Source of the DNA: Streptomyces sp. NBC_01298
GTDB taxonomy: Bacteria > Actinomycetota > Actinomycetes > Streptomycetales > Streptomycetaceae
Assembly: GCF_035978755.1 (NCBI RefSeq)
Contig: NZ_CP108414.1
Coordinates: 7,502,001 to 7,566,000 of the forward strand
Reading direction: 5' to 3'
Length of the DNA stretch: 64,000 nt
Under the pieces are notes generated by a model. That model was not told where the DNA came from. It did no database searches and saw only the letters and a program-made list of their open reading frames with translations. The stretch's first letter is position 1. Each line of letters begins with the position of its first letter. The position numbers were made by a program, and so were the translations under genes. This document shows, in pieces, positions 32,112-34,418 of the stretch.

Positions 32112-32293
32112 CGGAGAGAGTAGGAACGGAAGGGGGTGCCGCGCAAGACCCCGCGCCCGATCCGCTCGGCACGCCGCGCAGTCGCTGCGCCCCCCGACGG
32201 GTCGCACGTCTCACACGGTCACGGCGAGCCATCGGCCGCCGCTGCGGCGGCATCCCCCGAATCCGATGTGTGATCGCCGGTTAGCCTGGGGAA

Positions 32294-33133
32294 ATGCTCA
32301 CAGAAGTGATCGCGACCCGTTACGTCACGCCTTTGCGGGAGGGCGGCTCGCTCCCCGGAATCGTCGAAGCCGACGACCTCGGTACCTACGTCATGAAGTT
32401 CACCGGAGCCGGCCAGGGCCGCAAGACCCTGGTGGCCGAGGTCATCTGCGGCCGGCTGGCCCAGCGGCTGGGGCTGCGCGTTCCCCGGCTGGTGCAGATG
32501 CAGCTCGACCCGGTCATCGGGCTCGGCGAACCCGACCAGGAGGTCCAGGAGCTGCTGAAGGCCAGCGGCGGGCTGAACCTGGGGATGGACTACCTCCCCG
32601 GCTCGATCGGCTTCGACCCGCTCGCGTACCAGGTGGACCCCGTGGAGGCGGGGCGCGTGGTCTGGTTCGACGCGCTGATCAACAACGTCGACCGGTCCTG
32701 GCGCAATCCGAACATGCTGGTCTGGCACGGGGACCTCTGGCTCATCGACCACGGCGCCACCATGATCTGGCACCACAACTGGCCCACCGCCGGGAGCGCC
32801 GCCGCCAAGCCGTACAACGCCTCCGACCACGTGCTGGCCCCGGTCGGCCCGGACATCGCAGCGGCGGCGGCCGCGCTCGCTCCGCTGGTCACCGAGGAAC
32901 TGCTGACCGAGGTCGCGGCCGACGTGCCCGACGAATGGCTGGTCGACGAGCCGGGCTTCGACTCCACCGACGCGCTGCGCCGCGCCTACGTGGAGGCCCT
33001 GCTGCCGCGTGCGGCCACGATCCACGAGAGGATCACGATGGAGGCCGAGGCGAAGGTCCGGTCGGGTCCGCCCGGCTGGCTCGCCGACCGCCTCGACCCC
33101 CGTCCCCGGAAGATGAAGAGCGACAGCGAGTGA
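32294..33133 (+). CDS. HipA family kinase-like protein
   Basis: A 279-aa protein of the HipA/PI4K-like kinase fold. Kinase signatures: catalytic D133 in ALINNVDRSWRNPNML, N140 in the same loop, and metal-binding D152 in LWLIDHGATM. The N-terminal part holds the nucleotide-loop region (DDLGTYVMKFTGAGQGRKTL). It is shorter than E. coli HipA (440 aa), has no HipB-type antitoxin gene beside it, and instead overlaps a DUF3037 gene by 4 bp (GTGA). TTAGCC about 10 bases upstream of the ATG suggests leaderless transcription. Substrate unknown; a persistence-toxin role is not proven. Confidence 0.85.
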   Translation: MLTEVIATRYVTPLREGGSLPGIVEADDLGTYVMKFTGAGQGRKTLVAEVICGRLAQRLGLRVPRLVQMQLDPVIGLGEPDQEVQELLKASGGLNLGMDYLPGSIGFDPLAYQVDPVEAGRVVWFDALINNVDRSWRNPNMLVWHGDLWLIDHGATMIWHHNWPTAGSAAAKPYNASDHVLAPVGPDIAAAAAALAPLVTEELLTEVAADVPDEWLVDEPGFDSTDALRRAYVEALLPRAATIHERITMEAEAKVRSGPPGWLADRLDPRPRKMKSDSE

Positions 33134-33513
33134 TCAAGCGGGACGTGTTCGAGTACGCGCTGGTGCGCGTGGTGCCCCGGATGGAGCGCGGCGAGTGTTT
33201 CAACGCCGGCGTGATCGTCTACTGCCGGGCGCATTCCTACGTCCGTGCCCGCACCCACCTCGACGAGGCCAAGCTCCTCGCACTGGATCCGGGGGCCGAC
33301 GTGGCCGGGGTGCGGGCCGCCCTGCGCGGCGTCGAGGGCCTGTGCGCCGGCGGTGAGTCCGCGGGGCAGGCCGCGGGTGACGACGCGGGGCGGCGCTTCC
33401 GGTGGCTGATCGCGCCGCGCAGCACGGTGGTGCAGCCGGGCCCGGTGCATACGGGCCTGACGGCCGACCCCGCCGCTGAGGTGGAGCGGCTGCTGGACCT
33501 CCTGGTCCGGTGA
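33130..33513 (+). CDS. DUF3037 family protein, partner of the HipA-like kinase
   Basis: A 127-aa protein with the family pattern FEYALVRVVPRMERGECFNA, GVIVYCRAHSYVRARTHLDE and RRFRWLIAPRSTVVQPGPVH. The GTG start overlaps the kinase stop by 4 bp, the signature of translational coupling and usually of joint function. DUF3037 is known mainly as a companion of short HipA-like proteins; it has no established activity. Confidence 0.85.
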   Translation: MIKRDVFEYALVRVVPRMERGECFNAGVIVYCRAHSYVRARTHLDEAKLLALDPGADVAGVRAALRGVEGLCAGGESAGQAAGDDAGRRFRWLIAPRSTVVQPGPVHTGLTADPAAEVERLLDLLVR

Positions 33514-33535
33514 GGCGCTGACGGCCATCGCGTCG

Positions 33536-33580
33536 GGAGCCCTGGAACCCGGTGGCGTTGACACCGGGTGCCAGGGCTCC
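33536..33580 (+). terminator. Terminator after the HipA/DUF3037 pair
   Basis: GGAGCCCTGG and CCAGGGCTCC close an outer stem around an inner CCCGGTG/CACCGGG stem, 22 bases after the stop. It separates this pair from the SDR genes. Confidence 0.75.
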
Positions 33581-33656
33581 TAGCGTCTCCTCAGCTGAAG
33601 CTACTAAGCGGTTGCTCACCTCTGAGGACCGCTTTCCCAGTGCGAGGAGATCCAGC

Positions 33657-34418
33657 ATGTCCACCACCGAGCAGCGCGTCGCGATCGTGACCGGGGCGGC
33701 CCGGGGCATCGGCGCGGCCACCGCCGTACGCCTGGCCGCCGAAGGCCGGGCGGTCGCCGTACTCGACCTGGACGAGGCGGCCTGCAAGGACACCGTGGAG
33801 ACCATCACGGCGGCCGGCGGCACGGCCGTCGCGATCGGCTGCGACGTGTCCGACAGCGCCCAGGTGGAGGCTGCCGTCGAGCGGGTGGCGAGCCTGCTCG
33901 GCGCCCCGACCATCCTGGTCAACAATGCGGGTGTGCTGCGGGACAACCTGCTGTTCAAGATGAGCGACACCGACTGGGACACCGTCATGAACGTCCACCT
34001 GCGCGGTGCGTTCCTGATGTCGAAGGCCTGTCAGAAGCACATGGTGGCAGCCAAGTTCGGCCGGATCGTGAGCCTCTCCAGCAGCTCCGCCCTCGGCAAC
34101 CGCGGCCAGGCCAACTACTCGGCGGCCAAGGCCGGTCTGCAGGGCTTCACCAAGACCCTGGCCATCGAGCTCGGCAAGTTCGGCATCACCTCGAACGCCG
34201 TCGCTCCCGGGTTCATCGTCACCGAGATGACCGCCCACACGGCCGCCCGTGTCGGCATGGACTTCGAGGACTTCCAGGCCGCGGCGGCCACCCAGATCCC
34301 GGTGCAGCGCGTCGGGCGCCCGGACGACGTGGCCAACGCCATCGCCTTCTTCACCGGCGAGGCCGCCGGCTTCGTCTCCGGCCAGGTCATGTACGTGGCC
34401 GGCGGCCCGCTCAGCTGA
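33657..34418 (+). CDS. SDR family NAD(P)-dependent oxidoreductase, FabG-like
   Basis: A 253-aa short-chain dehydrogenase. NAD(P) motif TGAARGIGAATAVRL, structural NNAG, and the catalytic Ser-Tyr-Lys in LSSSSALGNRGQANYSAAK are intact. The C-terminal part ends FVSGQVMYVAGGPLS, typical of 3-oxoacyl-ACP reductases. ATG 33657 has GAGGAGA upstream. The following SDR gene begins about 20 bp later; the pair is likely an operon. Whether it acts in fatty-acid synthesis or in degradation of a side substrate cannot be told. Confidence 0.9.
   Translation: MSTTEQRVAIVTGAARGIGAATAVRLAAEGRAVAVLDLDEAACKDTVETITAAGGTAVAIGCDVSDSAQVEAAVERVASLLGAPTILVNNAGVLRDNLLFKMSDTDWDTVMNVHLRGAFLMSKACQKHMVAAKFGRIVSLSSSSALGNRGQANYSAAKAGLQGFTKTLAIELGKFGITSNAVAPGFIVTEMTAHTAARVGMDFEDFQAAAATQIPVQRVGRPDDVANAIAFFTGEAAGFVSGQVMYVAGGPLS

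Follow-up and report, generated by a model that had tools for sequence, protein, structure and literature searches.

Pairs of a HipA-like kinase and a DUF3037 protein are a known kind of system, described in papers of 2025-2026, in their accessible text, as PDC-M66, an anti-phage, toxin-antitoxin-like pair. According to the available part of one of these papers, DUF3037 is strongly associated with HipA-like proteins, and the HipA-like/DUF3037 pair was identified as PDC-M66, a phage-defence candidate of PADLOC (PMC12548924). In the same part it was reported that, in Retron-Sda1, deletion of the kinase abolishes defence against Bas51 and deletion of DUF3037 is toxic (PMC12548924). The system DS-6, renamed HipAD, is comprised of a kinase and a DUF3037-DUF1829 protein that are predicted to form a complex, and its defence is lost when a catalytic residue of the kinase is mutated, as given in the accessible sections of PMC13092281; by the title of a reference therein, HipAD stems from a study of E. 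coli prophages. With regard to conservation, the HipBST system of Legionella serves, in the available portion of PMC10653801, as a precedent for a hip system that is highly conserved within a genus.

A pair of these two families occurs in the window, which is the whole stretch of 64,000 nucleotides from Streptomyces sp. NBC_01298 that was analysed. What is new about it is how minimal it is, and that it is a core, vertically inherited locus of Streptomyces which nearly all genomes of the family carry as well. In the literature searched, nothing presents the Streptomyces genes as a core pair, and the supplement of PMC12548924 on DUF3037 neighbourhoods may include Streptomyces loci. In its main text, the 2021 HipA phylogeny (PMC8262856) contains neither the word Streptomyces nor the word DUF, and that of the 2023 actinobacterial defence survey (PMC10482375) contains neither HipA nor PDC.

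Structure of the locus and its relation to described systems

The first gene (32294..33133, forward strand) starts with ATG and encodes a HipA_2-type (HipA-like) Ser/Thr kinase of 279 aa. The DUF3037 gene (33130..33513, forward strand) encodes 127 aa from a GTG start codon located within the end of the kinase gene, so that stop and start overlap in the 4 bp GTGA (33130..33133, forward strand; read in the sequence). The initial annotation had placed both open reading frames and their overlap correctly, and its family names agree with Pfam matches to HipA_2 and DUF3037 over the cut-offs. The upstream neighbour, transcribed divergently, encodes a protein of glycosyl hydrolase family 8; downstream are two SDR genes and genes for a solute-binding protein and uracil-DNA glycosylase (ung). 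A fabG-like SDR gene (adh_short_C2 by Pfam; 33657..34418, forward strand) lies outside the module and serves as the downstream synteny marker. In a family search, the 9.7-Mb source genome has a single match each to HipA_2 and DUF3037.

The kinase matches Pfam HipA_2 (PF20613, E 2e-14, over cut-off), and HipA_C reaches 12.2 bits in it, below the cut-off of 30.5. It consists of the core alone, about aa 1-249, plus a variable C-terminal tail. Its model and HipA align no earlier than about residue 119, so the N-terminal HipA subdomain is missing. In the Gly-rich loop G17-G18-S19-x-P21 (32342..32356, forward strand), to which a role may be assigned by position, G17, G18, S19 and P21 are invariant in 31/31 kinases of alignment set A2. 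The putative catalytic loop D133-R134-S-W-R-N138-P-N140 (32690..32713, forward strand) was located by the alignment of paired kinases, in which identical sequences were collapsed; D133, N138, N140 and D152 are invariant in 76/76 of them, window included. The D152-H153-G154 motif (32747..32755, forward strand), which was located by the same means and which we take from general kinase knowledge to be metal-binding, is invariant in 76/76 paired kinases and in the 4/4 orphan paralogues aligned, which were set apart. A second group of the residue alignment (n=31) was made up of 24 loci from other genera, 6 from within the genus and an accessory copy (L103), and one locus (L097) was excluded from the DUF3037 set. 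As far as alignment and model indicate, the kinase fold and catalytic residues are intact. The initial annotation had named D133, N140 and D152 as the catalytic residues, and all three are invariant; however, N138 is likelier than N140 to be the catalytic-loop Asn, because it is equally invariant and follows D133 at the D+5 distance that is usual in the catalytic loops of canonical kinases.

The DUF3037 protein matches Pfam PF11236 (E 9.1e-43, aa 9-126, over cut-off) as its sole Pfam family and is composed of this domain alone, with no C-terminal extension. A C-terminal domain is likewise absent in 23/24 loci outside the genus, where the protein ends within 15 residues of the DUF3037 profile end; in the exception (L069), DUF3037 reads differently near the end, perhaps through a frameshift. 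The best AlphaFold2 model has a pLDDT of 92.2 (five models, 92.2 to 66.9). When this protein was compared with known antitoxin folds, HipS and HTH, the fold search gave no match of any kind, an absence that is weakly informative, and no convincing sequence relative of solved structure was found for either protein.

Immediately ahead of the kinase start codon lies a conserved TAGCCTGGG element, and TAGCCTGGGGAA (32282..32293, forward strand), directly before the ATG, is probably the -10-like box of a leaderless promoter. TANNNT ends 5-8 nt before the kinase start in 52/80 upstream sequences (the window and 79 of the 80 named loci; the remaining locus, in which no full-length kinase was matched, is missing from this count and from that of kinase length), and it occurs at four control offsets 0, 0, 1 and 2 times. 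A sigma-70 consensus scan returned 0 promoters. At the other end, a stable hairpin (33535..33581, forward strand; 19 pairs; z -4.74 for a folded stretch of 101 nt) starts 22 nt after the DUF3037 stop. It had been read as a terminator that makes the pair a self-contained unit. The hairpin is indeed found at this distance; since a U-run is lacking and the consensus intrinsic terminator scan found 0, termination at this candidate is no more than plausible; the notion of a self-contained unit holds for co-inheritance, though not through a terminator of consensus type.

When scored without PADLOC's own score and coverage limits, the kinase matches PDC-M66A (E 4.8e-19, profile positions 9-176 of 270) and the DUF3037 protein matches PDC-M66B (E 4.1e-6, only profile positions 4-128 of 281), as do 31/31 kinases of set A2 and 30/30 DUF3037 proteins of set A1, respectively. 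In both PDC-M66/HipAD and the window, a HipA-family kinase adjoins a DUF3037 protein and no HipB is present. On the other hand, DS-6B carries DUF3037 plus DUF1829 in the published description available, whereas the 127-aa window protein carries DUF3037 alone, and HipAD comes, by the same partial source, from E. coli prophages, whereas the Streptomyces pair is a core chromosomal locus. Because its DUF3037 protein is without the C-terminal domain, the pair is, judged by sequence, a variant of PDC-M66/HipAD, short of a full member.

Retron-Sda1 contains the identical two families, a HipA-like kinase and DUF3037; however, in the accessible description its DUF3037 C-terminus resembles a type III-A1 retron DNA-binding protein and its pair resides in a retron operon, whereas no reverse transcriptase was found among the 8 neighbouring genes scanned here. 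The HipBA systems of E. coli and Shewanella differ in that the window kinase is without the N-terminal HipA subdomain, with HipA_C below cut-off, and in that a HipB-type HTH gene is absent among the 8 scanned neighbours. The earlier statement that no HipB-like antitoxin accompanies the pair was thus borne out for these 8 genes, which yielded neither an HTH nor a HipB family. The HipBST systems of E. coli and Legionella also differ in that no HipB-like gene lies near the window pair; DUF3037 has no detectable relation to HipS, a weak comparison since the fold search was matchless. CtkA of Helicobacter pylori is 13% identical to the window kinase and has the fold alone in common with it. CtkA is not known to have a DUF3037 partner.

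Linkage, distribution and selection

The two families are tightly linked. In a phylum sample of 246 genomes, 33 carry DUF3037 and 36 carry HipA_2, and HipA_2 lies immediately upstream on the same strand in 33/33 DUF3037 genomes, with 40 to 446 bp between the two family matches. Within the genus, a kinase lies upstream of DUF3037 in 30/30 loci inspected (the best 30 of 240), and the DUF3037 start codon shows the 4-bp overlap in 80/80 named loci of Streptomyces, taken as the best 80 among 590 confirmed matches. This overlap is above chance, because all 80 loci retain the 4 bp despite a kinase length of 248 to 299 aa across the 79 of them that were measured. There is strong support for DUF3037 as the cognate partner of the kinase, because all DUF3037 genomes of the phylum sample have the kinase immediately upstream. 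The initial annotation had suggested DUF3037 as the cognate partner and co-occurrence of the two families as a check, and on both counts the phylum sample agrees with it.

DUF3037 is present in 240/246 genus genomes, in one match per genome except for two genomes with two: the second match is an extra copy in G228 and a frame-broken gene in an 88%-complete assembly in G224. In the six genomes without a match, the place between kinase and fabG is a run of Ns (G010), the contig ends (G050), the paralogue is the sole kinase present (G079 and G152), a possibly hybrid kinase precedes an Rdx gene (G017), or both genes of the pair are missing (G008). As a control, classical HipA_C was searched in the identical genus genomes and occurs in 7/246, 6 of them over cut-off. 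In the family, a DUF3037 match was obtained in 119/121 genomes and 16/17 genera; 28 of the 121 belong to the own genus, and the other genera have a match in 91/93. In a second actinobacterial family tested, where 28/39 genomes (16/22 good ones) have a match and three of the 28 matches are partial, the pair is common, not core. It is patchy in the phylum outside the genus (25/238 sampled genomes).

The position of the pair is fixed in Streptomyces. A fabG gene is found downstream, within 2.2 kb, in all of the 80 named loci (the best 80 among 590), and the pair stands beside common fabG, SDR and ung genes in 18/20 large regions, which were hand-picked, mostly from long-contig assemblies. In one of the two exceptions fabG is some 9 kb off, and the other is an extra, ~51%-identical copy near a chromosome end. 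Among 8 loci of other family genera, fabG is downstream in 2; the other 6, L210-L215, all of one non-Streptomyces genus (g183), have the pair with no fabG within the fetched 1.5 kb.

The pair tree agrees with the trees of its neighbours. It has 26/78 splits in common with the tree of two downstream SDR genes (81 sequences), for which random expectation is a mean of 0.29 and at most 3 (200 relabellings); the fabG tree and the SDR tree taken singly have 18 splits in common. Median pairwise dN/dS is 0.237 for the kinase and 0.168 for DUF3037, compared with 0.206 for fabG, 0.197 for SDR and 0.157 for ung (19 sequences each) and 0.532 for the solute-binding protein gene (16 sequences), after two loci (L100 and L103) were dropped from the 20 hand-picked regions. 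Both genes are therefore under purifying selection, like the flanking fabG, SDR and ung. Two subset analyses of the named loci used 59/80 each, chosen for diversity. The pair is core, syntenic and vertically inherited in Streptomyces and near-universal in the family. This core syntenic status, its most unusual feature, is invisible from one genome; the initial annotation missed it because one genome alone was seen.

Orphan paralogues, losses and accessory copies

A second HipA_2 kinase, without DUF3037, is present in many Streptomyces genomes. In the 8 regions read, this orphan is 51-57% identical to the window kinase and is accompanied in 8/8 by genes for malate synthase, a MobA-like transferase, an IclR regulator and an allantoinase-like amidohydrolase (Pfam names taken from one region, L044), and an allantoicase gene is next in regions reaching far enough. 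Four aligned orphan copies have Ser at the N138 position, and one orphan (L044:7724-8632) also matches PDC-M66A. Since orphan kinases occur without DUF3037, kinases of this family can be maintained without a linked DUF3037, which limits a toxin-antitoxin reading.

Several loci depart from the intact pair. Genome G017 (L112) is without DUF3037; its kinase carries the N138 motif of the paired type, and an Rdx-family gene comes next. The first 240 residues of this kinase are about 75% identical to some paired kinases, and its full length aligns with orphans, which may point to a hybrid between the paralogues or, in an assembly of 1140 contigs, to an effect of assembly. The genome G202 (L123), of 4.8 Mb and included in the 240, retains a broken piece of DUF3037 immediately ahead of fabG, and no kinase was found in it. 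Having lost the core pair, G202 is also among the just seven genomes of the genus in which classical HipA_C gave a match. DUF3037 is matched along its full length in two plasmid records of Leptolyngbya boryana; in the one read closely (L207:3619-4408), a C-terminal remnant is all that is left of the kinase beside an intact DUF3037. That plasmid has an annotated IS110 transposase gene about 1 kb upstream, and the unannotated ORFs between it and the kinase remnant look transposase-like by eye.

Accessory copies were also detected. One near a chromosome end (L103, G228) and one on a plasmid (L206) are about 45-53% identical to the core copy. The plasmid pair, from Streptomyces globosus, has the identical 4-bp overlap and is located amid a beta-ketoacyl synthase gene, a phosphopantetheinyl transferase and ccrA. 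A Parabacteroides pair (L208) overlaps by 23 bp and has a DUF3037 protein of 127 aa. The corresponding Parabacteroides distasonis record, filed as a plasmid, has the short pair among argH, pyrE and gltA, genes that look chromosomal.

A mobile or viral origin of the window copy was considered and rejected. Viral contigs gave 18 and 6 pattern matches for the DUF3037 and kinase queries, none of them confirmed, and 50,697 phage records, searched with the kinase query alone, gave no relatives. Plasmid records gave 6 matches per protein, all under 60% identity and some atypical, such as an 11.85-Mb Nonomuraea replicon and the Parabacteroides record with argH and pyrE.

Possible functions of the core pair

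By analogy with the tested homologues, the pair would be a kinase/inhibitor module of the HipAD (PDC-M66) type, minimal and vertically inherited, in which DUF3037 restrains the kinase; we put the probability of this reading at roughly 60%. Briefly, a leaderless message with the -10 box would feed the kinase, and the DUF3037 frame would be translated from this common message by translational coupling, in step with the kinase. The DUF3037 protein would bind the kinase and hold it off until a signal, either phage infection or, in the core form, another stress, lifts the block. The HipA-like kinase would then phosphorylate a cellular target and halt or reprogram growth. The coupling on one message, the inhibition by binding and both the target and the trigger in Streptomyces are parts of this scheme that we infer. 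The toxin/antitoxin reading draws its support from homologues (PMC12548924 and PMC13092281, in their accessible text), which may favour the earlier proposal of a toxin/antitoxin module; its newness as a kind did not stand. Natural losses agree with the kinase/inhibitor reading in direction, in few cases (L207 and G202).

It is unusual for a toxin-antitoxin or defence system to occur once in nearly every genome at a syntenic locus, and this speaks against the reading, as do the orphan paralogues, the G017 kinase, the patchy presence outside the genus and the lack of fabG near the pair in L210-L215. The pair could instead be a housekeeping phosphorylation switch, in which the kinase is non-toxic at its natural levels and acts on a specific protein target in normal physiology, with DUF3037 as an adaptor, activator or substrate. 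The core distribution, the fixed locus beside the fabG, SDR and ung genes, and purifying selection resembling that on these neighbours are all in line with such a switch, and so are the lack of copies in viral contigs (both queries) and phage records (kinase query), the orphan at a malate synthase/allantoin-type locus without DUF3037 in 8/8 regions, and the Parabacteroides short pair, which is also between metabolic genes. However, in the nearest homologues that have been tested, lack of DUF3037 causes toxicity and the system protects against phage; loss of the kinase with DUF3037 retained or decaying also fits a toxin-antitoxin system, albeit in two cases and with G017 showing the opposite. 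A housekeeping switch is a less likely but serious explanation.

Far less probable is an ordinary mobile toxin-antitoxin or defence-island system that lies here by chance. Systems of this type are listed by PADLOC as phage-defence candidates, the ~51%-identical G228 copy near a chromosome end and the Streptomyces globosus plasmid copy are accessory, and the pair is patchy outside the genus (25/238 sampled phylum genomes). Yet chance residence agrees poorly with presence in 240/246 genus genomes at a common locus in the named loci (the best 80 of 590), with a pair tree congruent with its neighbours, and with classical HipA_C in merely 7/246 genomes. That the pair is a decayed, non-functional remnant of an old module is refuted by conservation: the catalytic residues are invariant in 76/76 paired kinases, the overlap is conserved and dN/dS is low, which leaves this notion a negligible chance.

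It is conceivable, and we propose it tentatively, that an anti-phage toxin-antitoxin type was domesticated in Streptomycetaceae, with the minimal pair fixed as a core innate-immunity gene or a growth/development switch. One expects toxin-antitoxin and defence systems to be mobile and patchily distributed, but the Streptomyces pair is as fixed as its housekeeping neighbours in a large and much-studied family of antibiotic producers. Its relatives elsewhere guard bacteria against viruses, and why soil bacteria that produce antibiotics should carry it permanently is a puzzle open to experiment. As for genome annotation, if PADLOC's own score and coverage limits let the pair pass, PDC-M66 annotation may count a core pair of nearly every Streptomyces as defence. 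An uncharacterised core gene pair of Streptomyces is now linked to a freshly described anti-phage mechanism and, if the domestication is true, a 'defence' kinase would now be within the normal physiology of antibiotic-producing bacteria.
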